This document shows, in pieces, positions 2,773 to 64,000 of a stretch of 64,000 bases of DNA; the stretch's first letter is position 1; each line of letters begins with the position of its first letter. The stretch lies in assembly GCA_027919835.1 (NCBI GenBank), contig JANVFP010000017.1, positions 1,054,001-1,118,000 of the forward strand, written 5' to 3'. Source of the DNA: Lentinula raphanica (taxonomy: Eukaryota > Basidiomycota > Agaricomycetes > Agaricales > Omphalotaceae). The notes under the pieces are model-generated. The model made no database searches. It saw only the letters and a list, made by a program, of their open reading frames with translations, and had not been told where the DNA came from. Position numbers and translations under genes: made by a program.

Positions 2773-5359
<2,587 letters not shown>

Positions 5360-9460: not shown

Positions 9461-10065
9461 TTAGTTCTCGGCCTAGAACGCAAACGTCAAAAAGTGTTTC
9501 AATCCAAGATTTTTTGCTCACTTTTGCGTAGTATGTCGTAAAAAATTCATCAGGATCAGCAACCGCTCTAGCAGCAACCATGACCTGTTCAAAGTTCGAC
9601 ATCTGTACGTTCAAGAGAATGTGAGCAAAAGGACTTACATCATCAGCAAATGCTCTTTTGGCACGTTCGACTGCTTTTGCATAATATGTGGTGAAAAATT
9701 CGTCTGGATCAGCCACAGCCCGTCCAACAATAGCTCGTTCCGCGATAGAACGCTCAACTTCAGAACGTTCTACAGCTTTCGCGTAGTAGGTGGTGAAAAA
9801 TTCGTCGGGATCTGCGACAGCGCGCTCTACAGCTTTGCTGTAGTAGGTGGTGAAGAACTCGTCGGGATCGGCGACGGCCCGTTCGACAGCCTTGCTGTAG
9901 TAAGTCGTGAAGAACTCATCGGGGTCGGCGACTGCACGAGCCTTCAAGGAAGATAGGTCAGCTTTTTCTGAAGCTCGTGCAAGGGATACTGACCGCTTTC
10001 TCGAGAGGAGCGGCGCAAGCTACCGCAGCGCACAACAGGAGACTAAACGCGGAGGTGAACTTCAT
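9461..10065 (-). CDS. Secreted repeat precursor protein, candidate dikaritin-type RiPP precursor
   Basis: Four exons (9994-10065, 9639-9941, 9522-9584, 9461-9472) encode 149 residues. Residues 1-19 or so form a classical signal peptide (MKFTSAFSLLLCAAVACAAP). Then come five copies of the unit AVADPDEFFTTYYSKAVER, at 27-45, 46-64, 65-83, 99-117 and 132-149. The last is cut short and ends AKAEN. Ser alternates with Ala after YY. Between copies 3 and 4 are three pentapeptides ending in Arg (SEVER, SIAER, AIVGR). A single dibasic site (AKR) occurs at 118-120. Fungal dikaritin precursors such as those of ustiloxin, phomopsin and asperipin share this plan: signal peptide plus repeated Tyr-containing cores beside UstYa genes. 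The likely core is FFTTYY or a flanking extension of it. No domain homology is needed for the call; the repeats and neighbours carry it. Acceptors for exon 3 are ambiguous (AG at 9585 or 18 nt upstream). The sequences of all copies differ almost only at silent sites. Confidence 0.85.
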
Positions 10066-10903
10066 CTCGTATCTTCTGGATGTTCTAGTGAGGATTCTAG
10101 AACCAAGGTGGCCTTTTATAATCCAAATAATCACACTTTGGGGCCAAAACTTTTGTCACACCAGCAATACTACTCAGGCTCCTCCTGGATTTGTTATTTT
10201 TCAACTTATACCATCAACCGTTGAGGGATAGATCTTCGTCAACGGCTTTCTGGTAGCACCGGACGTCCGTATGTGTACTTGCAAAGTTCGTTCCACTGGT
10301 AGAACTCCAATCGATTGCGATTGTAGTGATGCCACTCAGTCCATTGACCGCGACATTTCCCTGAACAATGAACATAGCCGTCCCTTCCCGGTGCATACGG
10401 CTATTAACCCCAAGGGCCAAAATTCTAACACTGCAATACATATGCATAGGATTTCAGACGATGATCTATCGCAGCAAATACAAATGAACAGAGGGGCTCC
10501 AAACATTGCAGTGTAAAAACTTACAGAGGTGGAGAGTCTTGGAGAGCTTGGGCCAGCGCTCAACGTGGTATGTGATGTTCCATATATTTCGAACGGGTAT
10601 CTCTGATCGCTGATTTGCTACTTTGAACTGAGAACATTCAAAAGAGTAACGACAAAGAGATCTAGCAATCGGTAATCCTGCACGCCGCACGGGGTTTTCT
10701 GACCGATGACTTTTCCTTTGAAAGGGTCATTGTAGGTCATTGCTATCCTGAGTGGATGATCCTCAACTCATTCTATTTCGCTACACATTTTCTTCGCAGT
10801 GAGAATTGACTCTGGTTGCTAATTTGGCAACTTATGTTGGTCATTCTCTTCCTTCAAGCTATTGCTCCTGATCACCCCCACCAGAACCCTGGAGTTCTCA
10901 TTC
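10066..10903. other. Divergent promoter region between precursor and first UstYa-like gene; no resolved gene
   Basis: This 838-nt stretch should hold the promoters of the precursor (leftward) and of the UstYa-like gene at 10904 (rightward). On the minus strand, 10228-10447 contains a protein-like ORF (GNVAVNGLSGITTIAIDW) with possible upstream splice sites near 10510-10560. I could not join it to a start codon in frame, so it is not called as a gene. Confidence 0.4.
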
Positions 10904-11853
10904 ATGGACACTCAGCATTCAAACTGCTACCCACCCGTACAGGACGATGATATCACACCCTTCCAAAAACATCGATATCGTCCACTGACAACCTGGATTG
11001 GTTGTGGAAAGTATAATAACGAGGAGATCAAACTGCTTTTCCTGTCGACACTGATCGGATTCGCCTTGTTCTCTGTCTGTGGTCTTGTTGTTTTCCTTCA
11101 TGTCCCCGAGTGTATCCCCACTGCACCCGGGGAGTACTTCTACTGTGAAGAATCCATACCATTGTCGTTTCTCCATTGGAATGCTGACTGCGACTCTGAT
11201 TTATAGCTCCTGCGCAAGACCAGGTCAGATATGAGGAACGCCGATTTGACTTGGCCCGAATGCCAGATGCACCGACGCCGTTTCAAGCGACGCCTTCCGA
11301 AGAGTTAGATGAACTCTGGAAGGATCTATTTCGATGTCAGCTTTGTCTCACGGGCCTTTGGTTCGCATCGGACTCATGATTTGACTTTCGTTTGTTTGTA
11401 GATAGCGTCAATCAAATACCCAAGACTCAAGCTCGTTTTCTCCAGCCCAAAACCGTACCAATACCTGGCGATACGAGCAACTACATTGTCGGTCTTGATA
11501 TGTTTCACCAGATTCACTGCCTTGTACGTATGCCCCTGTAATGTTTGCCTATCCGAATAATTCATCTTGAAGACCCTCAGTATTCTATTCACAAAGTTCT
11601 CAACCCGGACTACTATCCAAAGATCTGGGAAGATCATTCCAGTCATTGCATTGAGCTTCTTCGAGAGGCCATCATGTGCTCTGGCTCCATTACGCCTTTG
11701 GTTTGGCAGTGGAACGATACGCTGGGAGAAGCAGAAATGAGATGGGACGTTGTTCATACTTGTAGATCATTCGATTTGGTACACAAATGGGCGAAAGACA
11801 ACCAGCTAAGGAGGTTGTTCTTGACTGACGTACACGTAGAGGATGATTTGTAG
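10904..11853 (+). CDS. UstYa-like (DUF3328) oxidase, cluster copy 1
   Basis: Exons 10904-11144, 11207-11335, 11402-11523 and 11581-11853 give 254 residues. There is a short cytosolic leader and a transmembrane helix at about 43-66 (LLFLSTLIGFALFSVCGLVV). The DUF3328 region follows, with the two hallmark HxxHC motifs: HQIHC at 159-163 and HSSHC at 183-187. The family block LVWQWNDTLGEAEM and a C-terminal HTCRSF are also present. UstYa-type proteins catalyse oxidative cyclisation, hydroxylation or halogenation in fungal peptide pathways; the histidines probably bind metal. The intron positions (phases 1, 1, 0) are shared with the other copies. It is divergent from the repeat precursor, as expected for a co-regulated RiPP pair. 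Its substrate is inferred from position only. Confidence 0.88.
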
Positions 11854-12040
11854 AAATTGGGATACTATCCATTGCGTCGACTTAGGAGTTGACCCATTTT
11901 ACGTCTCAGTGAGCATCCAGCAATGAAAATTAGTTGGTTCGGGATATCGCGACTTGCTCAATCTCCCTCTCGACCGTTTTAGGTATGATTATATGAGCCA
12001 ATGAGTATGTATAACACGAGAGCCTGTGGGCATACTATTT

Positions 12041-12949
12041 CTACCAATATTTCGTGTCGTCAACATCCAGAGTCATTTCTACTCCTGCGTCCAGCTGTCG
12101 CTCCTTCGCCCACTGTCGTATCGCTCCAAAATCTCGACATGTATATGCATTCGTATCAGAGAGCTCAAATTCTTTTGTGTCGGGATTCCGAGAATATACC
12201 ATAGAGTTGATATCCGTGGTGCACATGAGTGATTGTCGAAGGCTATCGATACACCAAGATAACCTGGCAGAGGATGGTTGTTGAGAGGGGTATTCGTTCG
12301 AGTGGACGAACCTCCGGATGTCATCCTAGGAAATCAGCATCAATGAAGAGACTGTACATCATTGATAGGGGAGGAAGTATGACTAACGAGGCAATGTAGT
12401 TGGCTGAAGACATCAAGCTCGACGAGGTACACCGGTTCAACATGAGCACTTGCACTAGCTGCTCGACTATGATGTCCATGCGATTTGAATGCACTTGTAG
12501 GATATAATGGATCTGGTTGATTTGAAAGCAAAGAGGCCTCGTCCTTTGTGAGCACAGATTTGCTGACTACAGTAAGAGCGTTGAGCTCGAGTTGACATCA
12601 TGGATTTGGAAAGCCCTCTCACAGTTGTACAGCTCAGCCCAAGCTTGATCTACTTCATCTCCGGCCCCTTTGTATGGCGTGACATGTTGAAAGGTTAGCT
12701 CCTGGACTTCGTAGTGAACGATATCATCTGCGGGTGCTGGAAGAAAGAAATGATCATTCAACGTTGAGCTATGTAAGTTCAAGAGAAAGATGACGAACAC
12801 ATAATGTGATTCGGTCTCAACGGAGAAAACTCTTCGTATAAACGATGCCTGAATACGTTGAAAGCAGTGAGAAACACAATGAGCACCCATTGGACGACCA
12901 AGACTATCCGAAGGGTGCGAGTCGGAATGTTGAACGAGGGGAAGTTCAT
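12041..12949 (-). CDS. UstYa-like protein, cluster copy 2, with degenerate metal-binding motifs
   Basis: Exons 12799-12949, 12623-12736, 12388-12566 and 12041-12325 give 242 residues. The first donor is GTTCGT, needed to keep the frame. The N-terminus is short, followed by a membrane helix (IVLVVQWVLIVFLTAFNVF). The family fold is recognisable (SPADDIVHYEV, CIDSLRQSLMCTTDINSMVY, TCRDFGAIRQWAKERQL). However, the first motif reads SQLHC (143-147) in place of HxxHC. The second reads RLSWC (169-173), losing both histidines. The gene is otherwise open and correctly spliced, so it is not an obvious pseudogene. It may be an inactive partner subunit or have changed chemistry. It lies tail-to-tail with copy 1. 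Confidence 0.82.
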
Positions 12950-13680
12950 GGTATTCTGTCTTCGTGTTCCTTTCGAGCCAAGGACTATGTTGACGGAGCC
13001 ACTTTCCTGGTCACTTCCAGAGTCATTATCTTGGTCAATCGGGACGGCTCAGCCCTTGTGGGAAGCGCTGGTAAAGGGCTGTAGGGGGTTAAGCAAATTT
13101 ACGGGTTCGAATGGACCGGCGATAGATTCTCCTTCAACATTTCCGCTTTACCCCGGCTGATAAGCTATGAGCGCTGAATACAGAATCGACAAAGAAGAAC
13201 CTAGCACAGCTTTAGCGATAACACCAGTACCGGTATTCACTGAGTTTTGCAAAGCTCCACAGACTGGGGTTAGTGACTTGCTGTTACTTGGCGTTGTCAT
13301 ATATTGTAGAACATCTGTATAGAATTGTGGAACAGTAGGGAGCCCATCCTAGCCCATCCCGCGTTTGGGAGAGAGACCCTGTGCAAGTGTTTAGCGGACA
13401 AAAACCAGACAAATGTACAGCATGATCAGATACCTAGACAGAATACAACAGTTGAGCAAGGACTCCTCTCGGTTCAGAGCAGAACAGTGCATACGTACAT
13501 ACAATTCGTTGACGTTGTAATTTCCTTAAAATATTGCCCCCAGATTTTAGTAAATCTAATCATCAAGAAACATCGGCCATAAAGATTGTCACTCGTCACA
13601 GTAAGAGAAACGCAAATATGCAAACCTGAGATAATAACCCGAATTCAGGTTTCTCGTCCGTTCCACTTCTGTTCTCAAGC
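12950..13680. other. Divergent intergenic region between UstYa-like copies 2 and 3
   Basis: This 731-nt region separates two divergently transcribed genes and should contain both promoters. I see no ORF with family features, no repeat and no RNA gene in it. Confidence 0.5.
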
Positions 13681-14644
13681 ATGCCCGCAACCACGAAGAA
13701 AGACGAGTACTCTGAAGAGGAGCACCTGTCGCTCTTACCAGACGAGTCGACAGCCAGTTTAGATTACGAAAAGCAGGGAATTAACAAGAACATCCCGAGG
13801 CCTGCTGGACACATCTTACTCAAAGCTGCCGCCATTCTGGGGGTTTTCATTTTCGCATCCGTAGTCCTCATCTTGTCCGTCCACGTCAAGCCGCAAACTT
13901 GCGCCTTTCAGCAATTTCCTGAAGGAGCCTATTGTGAGTATTTGAGGCTTGGTTATGTGGGGCAGAGGCAGACCTTGACTGTTTCATCACAGCTCCTGCT
14001 CACGGAAGCGTCTCATATGTGACAAAGCGCTTCAATGGGTCCTTCCCAATGACTTTGACAGAGTATCAGGGCGAGCCAAGCCCAGAGCTCGACGAGAAGT
14101 GGGAACAACTCTATGCTTGTAAGTGGCCACTCAAAGGGGCAAATCTATGTTAACGAGGCGACAGATGCTATTAGCCAGATTCCTCGCGAAGAAGCAATGA
14201 AACTCACTGACAAGACGGTTCCGATTCCTGGAGATGAGAGCAACTACATTGTTGGTTTGGAAGTATTCCATCAACTGCATTGTCTGGTAAGTTCAATGAG
14301 CAACGATTCTTTTTTTTTCGCGACTTCTAGTCTCATTGCTGTCCATTTAGGACTCGATCCGCAAGTCCTTGCGTCCTGATTACTACCCTTCGATGCCGAA
14401 CTTCCACACGAGTCATTGCGTAGACATTATTCGTCAGGCCTTGATGTGTACTGTGGATATTTCGCCCATCGTTTGGGAGTGGCGCGAGAAGGAGCAGGTG
14501 TCAGATGGAAGACTAGACGCAATGCATACTTGCCGCAACTGGGACCAAATATTGGAATGGGGGAAGGAGCATCAGATTCAAACGCATTTCGATATCAAAA
14601 CCAAGGCAGTCGATATATTGGCAGAAAGTGGTAGATTATTGTAG
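13681..14644 (+). CDS. UstYa-like (DUF3328) oxidase, cluster copy 3
   Basis: Exons 13681-13933, 13993-14118, 14165-14286 and 14351-14644 encode 264 residues. An acidic N-terminal tail (MPATTKKDEYSEEEHLSLLP) precedes a membrane helix (ILLKAAAILGVFIFASVVLI). Both catalytic motifs are intact: HQLHC at 162-166 and HTSHC at 186-190. The conserved TVPIPGDESNYIVGLEVF and MCTVDISPIVWEW are present. It shares all three intron positions with copies 1, 2 and 5. It is most similar by eye to copy 5 at 16415 (shared KTVPIPGDE, YIV-LEVFHQLHC, RQALMCTVDI-like run), which suggests a local duplication. Confidence 0.9.
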
Positions 14645-14825
14645 AGAACAATGAGCAGACTTCGTGCGTTTAGATTCTAGAACGTGTCGCAGATTTTCCC
14701 ACAATCAGCCCTCTGAACGTTGGGACCTTTGACAGCCTTTGACCACAACAGTGACAACACAAACTTTGCATCGAACTCAAAGGTTCCTTTCATTATCATC
14801 ATATTAGATACTACTACGACTACTA

Positions 14826-15997
14826 TCAAACTTCGGGAGCCCTCTTCATTGCCCATTCTTGTACTCTATCGAAATCACGACACTGGTGGATCACACTCGC
14901 ATCTCGCATCGCTGTCGCCATTGCATAATTCCATCGCCAAACTACGGGTGTTATGTCGCCAGAGCACATAATAGTCTGCCTGAGCGCGTCAATACAGTGA
15001 TCCATGTGCCACGTTCCAAGCAGAAGTGAAGGGTCCGTGTAGTAATCTGGAAAAAGTCGTTGGCGCAACTTATTCTGGAGAGACGACGTTATAATGGGCA
15101 ATGCATGAACAACAGCGAAAACTACTTACAACACAGTGCATGTCATGGAAGACTGCAAGCTGTATCAACTTCTCCGGCCTTCTCGCAATCTCATCTGCGT
15201 CTACACCAACGAGTTGCAGATTGGTCTGCTCTTCAGGCGTCAGAGACGAAATTCCCGCTGTTGGAGGATGGCGCTTAGAATTTTCCTCGAGTAGGCCCGA
15301 CAGTCGACGAACTTCATACTCACCTTTATATAAACTCCTCCAGAGCTCATTCACTTCGTCAGAAGGTCCTCTGCTATAATCGGACGCATTTTCCGGAGAC
15401 AAGTCGAAGACCTTAGCTTGACCGAACGCCACTTCCTTCGCCGGGCTATCGAAACAAACATCAGAATGGCTTCATGTAGAATTCGATTGGTAATGCTCAC
15501 AATACACAAGAACCTGTCTTTCGTCGATATATCTGTCTTCGTACGCCGAGCTTCCCAATGCAGTCAAAGCCAACACTATAATACAGAGCGTTTGGGCGAA
15601 GATGACTAGGTTTTTTTTTTTTTTTTGTATCATATTTAAACACCTTTGTGCCGTAGCATATAGTAGTGTATAGTCTGCAATAAGTATGTACCACTCCATA
15701 TTATCAGAATGTATATGTGTCCATCCAACAAGTGTCGTTCCCGTGAGGGATACATGACGCGAGTGCGTCTGACCCGAGGGTCAAAGGTATATTTGCCGTG
15801 AAGTCCGTATACCGTTAGGTATTAGTGAAAGCTGTAGTGGTATTAGTTGGATGCGGTGGTAGGATTAGATGTCGTTTTTCCCAGATGACTAGGTAATATC
15901 CGGTATGCGCAGGTTGGTCCTTTGTCACGACGACAGTCGTTACTTTCTCTTCTTCAGGGTCTGTACTGAGCGGAATGTAACTTCGAGCGGACGGCAT
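14826..15997 (-). pseudogene. UstYa-like (DUF3328) gene, cluster copy 4, 5' exon split by a retroposed insertion
   Basis: The downstream exons are 15324-15445, 15130-15257 and 14826-15074. They carry HDMHC and HMDHC, so both HxxHC motifs are intact. The first exon is broken. Its original start is the ATG at 15997 (MPSARSYIPLSTDPEEEK), reading in frame to TAC CTA GTC ATC at about 15883. There an insertion with a 16-nt poly-A run enters. The original frame resumes at 15610 with CTA GTC ATC TTC GCC (membrane helix LVIFAQTLCIIVLALTALGS). A shortened protein of about 208 residues could still start inside the insertion at 15633 (MIQKKKKNLVIFA) or at 15699. Its exons would be 15506-15633 plus the three above, which is in frame. 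Whether such a form is made is unknown. Confidence 0.75.
15611..15882 (-). mobile_element. Poly-A-tailed retroposed insertion (SINE-like or transcript fragment)
   Basis: The segment is flanked by direct repeats AGATGACTAGG at 15600-15610 and 15883-15893 (12 bp if the adjoining T is counted). On the minus strand its 3' end is a pure run of 16 A. Target duplication plus poly-A tail is the signature of LINE-mediated retroposition. Taking out the insert and one repeat restores the first exon of the UstYa-like gene in frame. The roughly 272-nt body matches no snRNA, 5S or tRNA that I recognise. Confidence 0.75.
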
Positions 15998-16414
15998 GAT
16001 GGACGTATGCCTAATTGTCCAAAGCGATAAGGTCACTTTTTGTCGTACTTATGCGGAGTTCGACTCTTCGCTCACATTGTGGTCTTTTCTCTAAGAATGT
16101 CAGCGGCGATCGTTACCCTATGCTTGGTATTCTTGCGCTTGGTGATTTCAATGGTAAACGACTGTTGAGTTGTGTAGAATCCACCTGATAGCAATACTGA
16201 CACTTCCAGATATCACCGGCGTTATACCGTTCGCGAGTGCACAGGAATGCACGTATAGCGTGACTCTGCTCCGTCACAGTTAGGGAAAAAGGGAAAGTCG
16301 AATTACATACGATCCAAATCTCGGTGTCGATACGATCGGGGACAAGCAGCTTTTTGGTAGTGAACCAGTTTTCACAAATACTCACTCGAGTATCTCTTCT
16401 CTTCCCCCACAACC

Positions 16415-17429
16415 ATGAGATTCTCTCCGCCGCGTCTTTCTTCTTTGTTATCCTGGCAGGACTCAGAGAAGTCCAGGGCGTCCACTGTCTACGCCCCGCT
16501 TGTTGCAGATGAAGCTCGCCGAAGCGAGGTCGATCTCCCTCTCCAGCCGAAACACAACAAACATACGTTGACAAGATTAGCCGTCGTTGTGTTCGTCTTC
16601 CTCTTCGGTCTGCTCATGGGGATTGTCGTTGCGCGCGCGCCTCAGATCGATATCATCCATTGTAATGTCTCGAGTGCTACGGAAGGCGAAACACTGTTGT
16701 ATTGTATGTGTTTGCATTCCCTTTATCGTTGGTGCGTTTTGTTGATACAAGGCTCATAATTCTACTCCTAGCTCCTGCTCAAGACGCTGTGCAATACGAA
16801 ATCCGTTATTTCAACGCCTCGTTCAGGACCGATATCACGAAGTATCAGGGCACACCTACCCCAGAAATCGACAAGAGCTGGGACGACCTATATCAGAGTA
16901 AGATCTATTCAGATGTCCGCATGAGCTACATTGATGATGATTCTTACCTCAAGACGGTATTAACCAGATCCCAGCCAGCGAGGCGAACAAGCTGGTAGAC
17001 AAAACAGTGCCTATCCCAGGTGATGAAAAAAACTATATCGTGACTCTAGAAGTCTTCCATCAGCTCCATTGCCTAGTAAGCTCTCCTATCCATCCTTCTA
17101 CGGTGGAGCTTGGTCGATTACTCAACTCCCTTGCTTATCTGTAGAACCTGCTTCGGAAATCCCTGTATCCTGATTATTACCCAACGACACTAGTCGACCA
17201 TCTGGACCATTGCGTTGACATCCTTCGCCAGGCCCTCACATGCACGGTTGATATCAATCCCTTGCCATGGTACTGGTACGAACCTCGCCAGGCAACTGAG
17301 ACAAAGCTCGATGGGGCACACAAATGTGTCGATTTTGGCAAGATCCAGGATTGGGCTTACGAGCATAGGCTGCAAACCAAGTTCAACGATAGTGTGAACC
17401 TGCAGTTGGGCCATCATCATCATGCGTAG
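16415..17429 (+). CDS. UstYa-like (DUF3328) oxidase, cluster copy 5
   Basis: Exons 16415-16703, 16772-16897, 16954-17075 and 17145-17429 encode 273 residues. The N-terminal tail of about 55 residues is followed by a membrane helix (LAVVVFVFLFGLLMGIVVA). HQLHC lies at 174-178 and HLDHC at 198-202. The motif KTVPIPGDEKNYIVTLEVF is fully conserved. The last residues are GHHHHA, a short natural His run of unknown meaning. It stands head-to-head with copy 4, and the second precursor gene follows 440 nt downstream on the same strand. Confidence 0.9.
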
Positions 17430-17867
17430 TACGATTATATGCCAATATCCTAGCGGGAGGAGGTAGTATCGCAGAAGCTGAAGAAACCTTGACTGGCAGG
17501 GCGGATACATGATCCTAGATAGTCGCTTCGTCTAACCAATCTTCACTCGTGTGCACATGGCAAGAGATGAAGCTCAGTGCTTCAAGTTCGAGCTTCCGAA
17601 GGGCGTCAGCTGAGTGCGAGTTACGTGCCCTTGTGCAAGGTATCTCGGATGTTGGGTGCACGAGAGAGCTACGGCTATCTATCATAGCTGTCATTCTCAT
17701 ATCATCGTACAGGTTCTCACCCAAACTGGAAGTCGTGAAAACCTTGGGGACTCTAGCAGCCCTGGCCGTAATATGACGTTGTCAAACGAATCTCTCAGTT
17801 ATAAAAGGCCAACTGGGACTCCCTGATCCCCAACATCTACTACTACTGTGAACTCACAAGTCTCGAG
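17430..17867. other. Intergenic region upstream of the second precursor
   Basis: This 438-nt spacer should hold the promoter of the gene at 17868. Small ORFs on both strands overlap here but none has family features. A TATA-like stretch (TTATAAAAGG) lies at about 17800, some 70 nt before the ATG, and fits a promoter. Confidence 0.45.
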
Positions 17868-18304
17868 ATGAAATTCACCCTCACCTCGATTCTCTACTTA
17901 GGTCTCACGGCAGTCTGTGCTGTACCCATCGAGGAAGTGAGTCACCAACTTGGTAACTACTATCTAGTATTCAACTTATCTGATCGAGCTTGATGCACCC
18001 ACCAACTCTTCAACGGTGCCATAGACTAGTGCAAGCGGCGTCAATCTCTACACAGACCACGGTGCACGAGCTTCTGATGGGCTTATTGCGAGTACAGACG
18101 ACGCCTTGACCAGATATTGGTCTAAAGCCAGTGTGAGAGCCGCCAAGCGCGATGCGATAGACATTTCCATTGCAGAACGTGAAGTCGTCAGTGGGCGTTC
18201 CAACATAGTAGATGACACTGACTGTGCGTCCTTGAATTTTCTATGCGGTTTTACATGAGGAGTTGAACGAACGTTGAACAGGCCCTGGTGGCTTTTGCCA
18301 TTGA
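17868..18304 (+). CDS. Second secreted precursor peptide, single-core relative of the repeat precursor
   Basis: Exons 17868-17936, 18025-18223 and 18282-18304 give 96 residues. The signal peptide (MKFTLTSILYLGLTAVCAVP) resembles that of the five-repeat precursor and begins with the same MKFT. Residues 46-67 (STDDALTRYWSKASVRAAKR plus DA) align with the repeat unit of the other precursor followed by its AKRA site: D, T-x-Y-aromatic-S-K-A and R-A-K-R all line up. SIAER (71-75) is also shared. The C-terminus is DDTDCPGGFCH, with two cysteines. It therefore looks like a sister precursor with one diverged core (TDDALTRYWSK or part of it) and a true dibasic cleavage site at 64-65. Alternatively it is a small secreted protein that only shares ancestry. 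Confidence 0.72.
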
Positions 18305-60204: not shown

Positions 60205-63200
60205 TTAGAAAGATTTCCGACGACCACTTCGTCGTGGACCCTTCGGTAGAGACGGATTCGCCTCTTCCTCTTGATCTTCGGACTCAGCAGCCTTCAGATC
60301 CTCCGGATCAAGCTGTTCAACAGGCGGAACCAGTGGTGGTTCAACGGAATTCGACTGATCATCACCGGAAATGTTTATTCGAGGGACAGTACTGAAAATA
60401 AAGTCCTCCACTTCCTCAGGTTCGTCTTCCTCATCCTGTACCATAGATTCTAACTGCTCGGGCGACAGATCTATCAGATCATGTATATTTTCCGGCAGTT
60501 CAATCGGTTCGTAACGAGCATGATGCGGGATCACACGGAAAGCACCCACTTTGTCTTTAAGTACAGTGCCATCCATTTCCGCAATGATATATGCACCTCC
60601 TCGTGTCCTCCGGATAACAACCATAGGTCCACGATATCGAAGGTACATTTTCCGATCCAAATTCTTCTCGATAGCAGTGTTCCGTACCTGTACTAAGGTT
60701 CCCGGTTTGAAATCCCAGTCCTTAATGGTGTACTTGTACTTTTCCTCGAAAACTCTCGCTTCTCGACGTTTGTTCTCGTCGATCCGTGATTTCATGTTCT
60801 CGACGAAGGAACGATGTTTGGAAAGAGCCTGAGCCCGGAAGCCCAGTAACTCTTCCCGTGATAGTATTCGATTTGGTGGATTGACCAAATATGTAGATTC
60901 AACAATATCGAAAGGTAGCAGAGGTTCAGTACCGGTAGCTACGAAGTATGGCGAACAGCCTAAACCTCTCCGTGCAGTAATACGATCAGCCCAAAGTATC
61001 GGTTTCAAGAAGTAGTACCATTTTGACAGATCTCCCGCACACGCTTTCGCAAGTGCTTGTCTCAGATCAAAGTGAGCACGTTCAATCTTTCCGTTAGCTT
61101 GTGAATTGTAAGGCGATATCTGTATTCCACGGATCCCGTATTTCTGTTCGAGCCATCTCAACATAAGCTTCATCTGTGGTGCATTGTCCGAGACCACGAT
61201 TTCCGGACATCCCCATCTACATATGATGTCTTCAAAGAACCATTCCGCGAGTGATCTCGCGTTTTCAACTCTCAGTGCCCTAGCTTCCGACCAACTCGAC
61301 AATGAATCCCTTCCGTGAACGATATATCTACAACCATTACTAGCCGGAGACATAACCATAGTATCGATATGTATCTTTTGGAACAAGGACGGCGTGAAGG
61401 TCACCGTTGGAGGGATCCGTACCAAAGACCTAAGTCGATCTTGGCAGGCTTGACATGTTTTCACATACCACTCCACGTCTTTCTCCAGATCAGGCCACCA
61501 AAACCTCTTTTCCAAGAAGTCTTTCGTAGCATATGTGCCCTTGTGTCCCAAAGCATCATGAGCACTGTGCAATAGATACATTCGTTTTTCCGGTTCAACC
61601 ACTAAACGCAGTTGATCTGTGGATGGTTTCCGATGGAACAGTCGACCTTCCGAGTCTATTGAAAAGGACAGCGTTTTCCGGTCCATTTCCGCTCGTTGTC
61701 TCTTGTCCAACTTCGCGAATTGTTCAGCATTCGGGTCCTTAAGCCATGCTCGAATTTCCGGTAACTGCTGATCTAGACGATTTCCGCCATCCGATCTATG
61801 AGATATCGGATATTTGTGATCAGGTCCCCAAGTAGCATTGTCGGGGATCGCAGTATACTGCAGAAACTGAGAGGTTAAAGGCATTCCCGAGGCCTCTAAA
61901 CGTTCTTTGAGGAATGCATGCTGGATCTCTTCCTCCCGGGCAACTTGAAGATCTTCCGCAAACTCATCTTCAATGGTCTCGCAAAAGTATCCTGTCCGGG
62001 GATCTATATGATCTTTGAATGATTCAAAGGGCAATGGATCATCCGCTTCGTCCGCTTTGAAGAACCTAACGTTGTTGGAGTCATCTGCATCTTCTGCTAG
62101 ATCCTCTTCGGTTTCCCGACGAGGGTAGTCCAACCTCCCGGAGGTCTTCGAGACAAACCATCAGGTCCAAAGGTTGCTCCTTTGACATGGATCAAATCGA
62201 AATGGAATTTACGGATATCTTCAATCCAACGGTTGATCGTAGCGTTTGGACCACTACTCGGATTTTCAAGCATTCCTTGAATATAGCTAGCATCCGTTTC
62301 CACCGTGAGTTTCCGACATCCATAAAGAAGATAGTGTGTTGCTCGGAGAGCAACCTTCAAACCATAGAGTTCACGCTTAGATTGAGAAAACCGAGCTTCA
62401 CGTTCATTATACGGGATGGATCCGAAGTAATTATAGAAATCTTCGTCTGATCTACAGGATCAATCTGATAGATGTAAAATCCCGTACCCATGTAAGAACT
62501 ATCCACTGCTAAGTGTGTTTCCCAGTCATATACTATGACTCTTAAGGCTGGTGCATTACGGACTCCGTCTTTCAACAGGTCCATGGCTATGACATGCTCA
62601 TCCTTCCACTCAAACGGAATATTCGCCGTTAATTTGGTCAAAGGTGAGGCTTTCTTAGCGTAATTGTGAATGAACATCCGGAGCTGACCAACAGTTCCCA
62701 GAAAGGCTCGGACCTGTGTCTTAGAAGAGCACGGAGGCCAAGTCAGAACCGTAGTTGCGATTCTATCTTCCGGTTTCTGTCCTTCGTACGTGCAACGGTG
62801 TCCAACCACTACAGTTTCAGCGCAACACAGGAATGCTTTAGGTCCCGAGAAGGTTCCGCCGCAATACCGCATCCGCTGAATGATTCGGTTCACATTTTGG
62901 AGATGCTCCCAGACAAATCGTCTGATCAAAGGATTTTCAGGGATAGTTTCGTATCCGCCACCCGGTAATTCATAACGAGTCCCGGGGCCTCTGATAGGAA
63001 CATCATCGACGTATGGAATAGTATATTCCGGAATTTCATCTCGCATCATGTAAGTTACATCGTCATGGAATATCGGAACAGAGTTCGTCCAACCCATAGG
63101 CAACTTTACGAGACGGTGTGGTCCGTACGGAGTTTGGAATGTCGTCAGATCTCGCGAACTAACATCGAGTGGTCGTTCATCATAACCCACATAGATATCC

Positions 63201-64000
63201 AACAAACCACCACAGGCACGACCCGCAAAATGACGAGCAATATCCGCGGTAGCAGGAGGAATCCCGGAGTGTTGAATGGTCACCTTGTTCAAGGGTTCCA
63301 AACTATGTACTAAACGAAGACTCGTTCCATCCTTCTTGACCACACAAAACCATTTTGAACGATAGCTCGAGCAGGATGGTTCATAAACTCCAGCATCAAT
63401 CTTATCCTTGATGATCTTACAAACCTTTTCGAAGATTCCGGGAGGAATTGGAATATTTCGTTCGACCCAGGGCTCATGAGGTATGACCGGAATTTTCACG
63501 GGAGGAAAGAAGTCCTCTCTGAATGTTCCGCCCTCGGAAGCTTCCCAAGCAAAACCCATTTCCTGCAACTTCATCATATGATGAACTAGCTTCATTTCCT
63601 CGTCCGTAAGGAAACCTTCCGCATGGTTTTTCTCGATGATCTCTTTCCGTTCTTGCGTATACCGAATACCCGGCGTGAATTCCGGAGGATGAGTTGGTAG
63701 ATCTGGTAGATCAGCCAAAGGATCCCCGTAAATGTGTCTCCGCACACGGAATTCTTCCGGTAGATCAGCCTTGACAGGGCGAACTTTCACCGCTACAGGC
63801 TTATATTTTCGAGAACCGAAGACCGAAACTGGCTGATCTGGCAAAAACACATCATTATAGGCGCATATATGCTGGTCAATCGTCTCGTTCTTGAGTTCCC
63901 AGAGCTTAACACGATGCATCGCAGCCTCCAAATCTTGGGTCATTGAAGACAATTCCGCATCTTTTGTTTGATCTACTTGATCTGGTAGATCTTCCGTGTT
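60205..64000 (-). pseudogene. Ty3-like pol: reverse transcriptase, RNase H, integrase (two frameshifts, partial)
   Basis: Three frames are joined by position: 62357 to beyond 63952, 62097-62450 and 60205-62133. The RT palm has LLDIYVGYDERPL, LPMGWTNSV and the catalytic IPYVDDVPIRGP. RNase H follows with LAVDSSYMGTG, then LTVETDASYIQGMLENP and GPDGLSRRPP. Integrase has the zinc-binding region (GTYATKDFLEKRFWWPD, CQACQD). Its DDE residues lie in IHIDTMVM, VVSDNAPQ and NGKIERAHFD. The frame breaks near 62445 (between YQIDPVD and SDEDFYNYFGS) and near 62130 (between RRPPGG and DYPRRETEE). The upstream part runs off the window. Two frameshifts suggest an inactive copy unless they are sequence errors. 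Confidence 0.82.

Follow-up and report, generated by a model that had tools for sequence, protein, structure and literature searches.

Can a mushroom make cross-linked ribosomal peptides of the dikaritin type, and if so, what would it do with several UstYa genes? These questions are raised by a region of the Lentinula raphanica genome (49 Mb) lying in a stretch of 64,000 nucleotides of contig JANVFP010000017.1 (C17), called here the window, where positions 9461 to 18304 harbor two related precursor genes and five genes of the UstYa (DUF3328) family. With moderate confidence, we interpret this region as a dikaritin-type cluster for a ribosomally synthesized and post-translationally modified peptide (RiPP), in which the secreted precursor 1 would be cut after single basic residues, three UstYa proteins (A, C and E) would cross-link its FFTTYY core, and a further one (B) would serve as a non-catalytic partner. 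Seven gene models are packed in the region, given here with an insert present in one of them:

9461..10065, reverse strand: precursor 1, exons 9994-10065, 9639-9941, 9522-9602 and 9461-9472, 155 residues
10904..11853, forward strand: UstYa gene A, four exons, 254 residues, both HxxHC motifs intact
12041..12949, reverse strand: UstYa gene B, four exons, 242 residues, motifs SQLHC and RLSWC
13681..14644, forward strand: UstYa gene C, four exons, 264 residues, both motifs intact
14826..15997, reverse strand: UstYa gene D, both HxxHC motifs on the last exons, first exon split by the insert
15600..15893, reverse strand: insert inside gene D, with a poly-A end and direct repeats
16415..17429, forward strand: UstYa gene E, four exons, 273 residues, both motifs intact
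17868..18304, forward strand: precursor 2, three exons, 96 residues, signal-peptide-like start and a single core-like stretch, LTRYW

These models agree with the compact cluster of two precursors and five UstYa genes inside 9 kb described in an initial annotation of this DNA, and the ends given there for both precursors are reproduced exactly by the spliced models. Three GT-AG introns interrupt each of the genes A, B, C and E, at places that match as judged by eye.

Precursor 1 has a signal-peptide-like start (MKFTSAFSLLLCAAVACAAP, judged by eye) and five copies of AVADPDEFFTTYY, beginning at residues 27, 46, 65, 99 and 138, the extended form of the copy being AVADPDEFFTTYY[S/A]K. Five copies of a 19-residue unit had been proposed; the number holds, but the head-to-tail spacing of 19 residues applies only to the first three copies and is followed by spacings of 34 and 39. 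The start of the third exon is uncertain, an acceptor 18 bases further on being better suited to the Lentinula relatives of the protein. The self-repeat score of precursor 1 (201) is the highest among the 736 stop-to-stop open reading frames (ORFs) of at least 45 residues in the window. The runners-up (114 and 107) come from alternative frames of this very stretch, the next independent ORF scores 46, and none of 300 shuffles reached the score of precursor 1 (shuffle maximum 47). Over the 10 pairs of copies, the 15-codon units show 89 synonymous versus 14 non-synonymous differences (pS 0.95, pN 0.039), and Ser/Ala is the only protein difference among the five units. Synonymous sites are thus saturated while the protein is nearly identical, and the repeated peptide is therefore under strong purifying selection and does not result from recent DNA duplication. 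No further copies of precursor 1 or 2 were found beyond this locus in a genome search made partly with an earlier 145-residue model. Pfam matches of precursor 1 to Exog_C and ACAS_N were dismissed as artefacts of its repeats or composition, being barely at the curated cut-off with no stretch passing alone.

Several traits of dikaritin clusters were tested. The precursor combines a signal-peptide-like start with repeated Tyr-containing cores, and it is adjoined by genes of UstYa/DUF3328, described as class-defining for dikaritins (PMC12048977). Dibasic KEX2 sites between the cores, as defined in PMC9769878, are lacking. The residues ahead of the copies are AAR, VER, VER, VGR and AAR, with a single Arg each, and the sole dibasic pair of the protein is KR at residue 119, outside the adjacent copies 1-4. 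Precursor 1 also falls outside the definition of Kex2-processed repeat proteins (KEPs) used in the Umemura survey, which according to its methods requires at least 3 tandem repeats of at least 8 residues between KR, KK, RK or RR (PMC7329392); since this rule demands dibasic pairs, precursor 1 would go uncounted. Coprinopsis repeat proteins produced in Pichia are described as giving peptides that appear to end at single Arg (PMC9769878). Here, cutting likely takes place between the Arg and the following AVADPD, and probably also after YYx[K/R]. The computed [M+H]+ values (unmodified, -2H and -4H) of the predicted products are 841.377, 839.361 and 837.345 for FFTTYY; 1085.446, 1083.431 and 1081.415 for DEFFTTYY; 1753.796, 1751.780 and 1749.764 for AVADPDEFFTTYYSK; and 1737.801, 1735.785 and 1733.769 for the Ala form of the latter.

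Precursor 2 had been annotated as a related, one-core protein. The kinship with precursor 1 is clear (BLASTP 3e-10; none of 1000 shuffles scores as high), and the core-like stretch is LTRYW rather than FFTTYY. Of 7992 candidates scored, 3 proteins were related to precursor 1 at E ≤ 1, one each from L. aff. detonsa, L. guzmanii and Stygiomarasmius scandens. No L. raphanica protein was among them, and precursor 1 therefore seems absent from the public protein sets of this species. The core-like stretches of the relatives are SFTTYY, FFSRYY, IFARYY and FFTTYY, with one SY variant in L. guzmanii. The constant part, shared by these stretches and precursor 2, is a Tyr-Tyr or Tyr-Trp pair with a basic residue two positions after it; the exception is the second, partial unit of the S. 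scandens protein, which departs from the Tyr-Tyr/basic pattern. The similarity of precursor 2 to the Lentinula relatives is weak, its score being reached by 2 and 27 of 1000 shuffles. The S. scandens protein (P0003, VKT23_002687) starts with two precursor units followed by unrelated-looking sequence, which may point to a gene model fused from two genes. In L. aff. detonsa and L. guzmanii, no UstYa was found on a contig of the same size as that of the precursor among the 120 of 171 matches listed, where annotation may be incomplete.

All five UstYa genes match PF11807 in a profile search, in every case above the curated cut-off (25 bits). The E-values were 1.2e-42 for A and 1.7e-51 for E; B and C, searched as their database counterparts P0006 (99% identical) and P0004, gave 6.1e-35 and 3.1e-51, and two fragments of D gave 6e-23 and 1.6e-5. 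The public L. raphanica proteins are very close: residues 1-259 of C are identical to P0004, B is 99% identical to P0006, and E is 98% identical over 180 residues to a third protein. Besides the latter, P0008 (F5880DRAFT_1488868) is 82% identical to E, and the species may vary in E-type genes. The biochemistry of the family can be read from CctR, a membrane-anchored, disulfide-linked homodimer of the DUF3328 family, each monomer of which binds two coppers through HxxHC(x)nHxxHC; changing His or Cys of the motifs to Ala abolishes activity (PMC12435403). We aligned 147 UstYa sequences, i.e. 139 database proteins of at least 150 residues and 8 models of our own, after removing three precursors, P0006 (a duplicate of B) and the short P0132 and P0141. 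The profiles used for gathering the set included B, so that the family is not randomly sampled. A, C, E and the pieces of D have the copper site. Its four His columns hold His in 143, 144, 141 and 142 of the 147 rows, and the His that precedes the last Cys is found in 142. Apart from the B-type proteins, rows with fewer than four His are a gene on contig C19 and P0140 (two lost in each), P0025 and P0122 (one each), and P0136, whose first motif is unaligned. The five UstYa-like oxidases initially annotated are thereby reduced to A, C and E, which are intact and carry both copper motifs; the motifs of B are lost and D is interrupted.

Gene B remains UstYa-like, but lacks the HxxHC motifs: three of the four copper-ligand His are replaced, a fifth conserved His is Tyr, and all four Cys are kept. 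The gene has the same 242-residue structure as the public P0006, with 2 substitutions. Orthologues were identified in L. aciculospora and S. scandens, members of the Omphalotaceae and Campanellaceae, respectively. The three proteins form one clade with a support of 1.0, and searches with B gave 555, 505 and 502 bits for the B-type proteins versus 113 for the next match. Three copper His are lost in L. raphanica and L. aciculospora and all four in S. scandens, the further His being also gone. The four positions lost in all three rows are occupied by S, R, W and Y, and the four Cys columns are intact. Invariant residues among the B-type proteins amount to 21/26 and 25/30 in the former active-site helices and 20/22 in a C-terminal stretch, versus 15/50 in the N-terminus and 37/81 in between. 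AlphaFold models of B and C (mean pLDDT 86.5 and 79.4) share the order of their elements, B having two extra short end helices. No solved UstYa structure was matched by sequence at E ≤ 1, and no solved fold resembled model B at E ≤ 0.001 (104 matches at E ≤ 10). The B-type proteins thus form a conserved orthologous family without the catalytic residues and, to judge from these models, with the fold kept, as expected of a pseudoenzyme. In S. scandens, the B-type gene (VKT23_002681) is six locus tags away from the precursor gene (VKT23_002687), and both contigs measure 3,440,586 bases and were taken as one; linkage between the copper-less UstYa and an FFTTYY precursor therefore extends to a second family. 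The B and C orthologues of L. aciculospora are likewise on contigs of the same size (1,173,297). Since B lacks most of the copper His and is nevertheless conserved in a second mushroom family, it is likely a non-catalytic dimer partner.

Gene D was also annotated as a UstYa gene, as borne out by its PF11807 pieces, but it is not intact. The insert has a 16-base poly-A end (15611-15626) and is flanked by 11-base direct repeats (15600-15610 and 15883-15893), and the element occurs on four other contigs of the genome: C29 (98%), C52 (81%), C31 (80%) and C15 (82% and 78%). Gene D was probably disrupted by the insertion of this mobile element. By eye, its frame also seems irregular where it crosses the first intron. 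Because a shorter frame starting inside the insert is open in this sequence, a gene D product is still possible.

The genome contains at least 8 UstYa genes (13 exon matches grouped), five at this locus, one on contig C12 and two on contig C19. The latter two (C19:142015-142353 and C19:144336-144653) lie on one side of a repeat-containing ORF (L012:6844-7164, reverse strand), within about 4 kb. This ORF has a self-repeat score of 69, which 0 of 300 shuffles reached; the runners-up at that locus score 40 (an ORF on its complementary strand) and 36. A signal-peptide-like exon lies ahead of it, and its units, which begin with AFAG, SFAA, NFGS and AFAG, come after RR, GR, RR and ER. In one of the two C19 UstYa genes, neither His of the second HxxHC motif remains. 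Two cases, C19 and the present locus, are too few for a rule. No kinship of the C19 ORF with precursor 1 or 2 is claimed, the scores being reached by 29 and 833 of 1000 shuffles, respectively. The lone C12 gene (L004, about 1384720-1385448) has both motifs and groups in the tree with sequences from Moniliophthora, Marasmius, Tetrapyrgos, Dendrothele, Collybiopsis and others, suggesting a UstYa type widely kept among marasmioid fungi. No repeat precursor was found in about 20 kb around it, where the best self-repeat scores (35 among 103 ORFs and 39 among 110) are at background level.

Between 9461 and 18304, where the gaps between gene models are at most 0.85 kb, there is no reductase or transporter gene. 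The window contains 194 ORFs of at least 90 residues. Pieces of a FAD-dependent phenol-hydroxylase-like monooxygenase (FAD_binding_3, Phe_hydrox_dim) are located at 3570-5114, about 4.3 kb from precursor 1; they were excluded from the cluster because ORFs of another gene, ADIP-like (below the cut-off), intervene. At the end of the window (60208-64000, reverse strand), long ORFs with an integrase zinc-binding domain and a below-cut-off match to reverse-transcriptase RNase H indicate a retroelement.

In the mechanism that we propose, precursor 1 would enter the secretory pathway, and single basic residues would be the cut sites that release the core, which may still be attached during oxidation. 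A, C and E would act in the secretory lumen as dimeric binuclear-copper enzymes similar to CctR, using copper and oxygen to oxidize FFTTYY, and the product could be a ring system like that of asperipin-2a, the closest chemical model. Through its retained helices and cysteines, B would associate with one of A, C and E, either holding the substrate or modulating its active partner, and precursor 2 would yield a minor Trp-containing variant. The dikaritin-like character first assigned to the locus is supported by its architecture and by the S. scandens pairing; its construction from five oxidases is not. A stronger version, in which the UstYa machine consists of a live copper subunit and an obligate copper-less B that grips the FFTTYY precursor or gates its partner, with C19 as an independent case, is possible but doubtful. 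Several observations weigh against the proposed mechanism. Among the 40 ORFs scanned with Pfam outside 9461-18304, there is no reductase or transporter, although intron-rich genes may escape such a scan. The C12 gene has no repeat precursor nearby, and UstYa genes therefore also do other work. CctR is a homodimer, not a mixed one. L. aciculospora has B and C, and no precursor appeared there in the search for relatives; conversely, no B-type protein was found in the precursor-bearing L. aff. detonsa and L. guzmanii among the 30 matches of the B search. Annotation gaps could explain these missing partners, yet they count against an obligate pairing.

The lack of a B-type match in these two precursor-bearing Lentinula species is also what would be expected if the cluster product were as proposed and B a roleless relic heading for loss. 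Such a relic would account for the larger divergence of B than of C between L. raphanica and L. aciculospora (0.50 vs 0.14), which speaks against a partner role as well, and it would fit next to the visibly broken D. We nevertheless find it rather unlikely, because B retains an open four-exon frame with so few substitutions relative to the other L. raphanica record, and because its orthologues in two families show the same S/R/W/Y replacements and intact cysteines, with the strongest conservation in the former active-site helices. The chemistry of the core is a separate matter: the UstYa proteins might oxidize it without any cross-link, by hydroxylation, desaturation or halogenation. CctR hydroxylates, and halogenation, oxidation, isomerization and cyclization are also named for DUF3328 (PMC12435403), so that cross-linking does not follow from family membership; moreover, the title of a cited paper reports dehydroamino acids made by UstYa in phomopsin synthesis. 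The resemblance of the core to FYYTGY of asperipin-2a, which is described as cyclized by one UstYa (PMC6514808), makes an uncross-linked product quite improbable.

It is still less probable that precursor 1 gives plain linear secreted peptides for signaling or defense while the UstYa genes act on something else. Mushrooms are reported to contain linear or minimally modified peptides derived from repeat precursors, including one from L. edodes (PMC9769878), and 78% of the precursors surveyed in PMC7329392 have no UstYa nearby; however, two precursors and five UstYa genes share 9 kb here, and the pairing recurs in S. scandens. Finally, the interruption of D and the lost copper site of B could be signs that the whole cluster is decaying and silent in the present strain. 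This seems scarcely credible given the near-identical protein copies of the precursor and the open spliced frames of A, C and E with both motifs.

The combination of UstYa with a repeat precursor is already known; what is new here is the absence of dibasic sites between the copies, the conserved copper-less paralogue and the mushroom host. To our knowledge, no basidiomycete dikaritin product has been characterized, and the locus is a concrete candidate with predicted masses. The initial annotation tied the pairing to ascomycetes, a restriction that does not hold: the survey in PMC7329392 counted a DUF3328 gene within 15 genes of 103 of 1680 Basidiomycota repeat precursors. UstYa genes of Pleurotus are described as developmentally expressed and probably involved in dikaritin production (PMC8893723), and mushroom dikaritins are therefore not new as a general idea. 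Rules based on dibasic sites overlook precursors such as precursor 1. With UstYa proteins now known to be copper dimers, why clusters contain several UstYa genes becomes a testable question: do copper-less and live subunits form mixed dimers? No report of mixed UstYa dimers or of dead UstYa proteins was found among the papers listed in the literature searches; PMC12143957 and PMC12145154 might mention them.

The role proposed for B has a parallel in Prozyme, a dead paralogue that activates the live AdoMet decarboxylase of trypanosomes (PMC5201418). Its fold is unrelated, and activation is demonstrated for Prozyme and only inferred for B. The BURP-domain burpitide cyclases of plants, an unrelated family, are also copper enzymes, cross-linking ribosomal peptides at their aromatic residues, and His changes inactivate one of them, ArbB2 (PMC12186524). 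CctR belongs to the UstYa fold family and shares with the present proteins an N-terminal membrane helix (one each in the B and C models) and the two HxxHC motifs (A, C and E); it differs in acting on a non-ribosomal peptide as a homodimer, and B is without most of the copper site. Basidiomycota KEPs likewise have a signal-peptide-like start and short repeated peptides, but KR, KK, RK or RR is required between their repeats and precursor 1 has none between its copies. The ustiloxin and phomopsin clusters also combine a repeat precursor with several UstYa genes (two and five, respectively; PMC7329392), whereas their tyrosinase, other tailoring genes and YxI-type cores are not found inside 9461-18304. 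Compared with the asperipin-2a cluster of Aspergillus flavus (aprA, aprY, aprT and aprR), as described in PMC6514808, the present locus has five UstYa genes instead of one, single Arg instead of dibasic sites, a basidiomycete host, and no visible counterpart of the reductase and transporter genes. Both systems have a repeat precursor, a six-residue Phe/Tyr/Thr core (FYYTGY in asperipin-2a) and UstYa, and asperipin-2a, made with the single UstYa of that pathway, has ether links from Tyr to beta-carbons.

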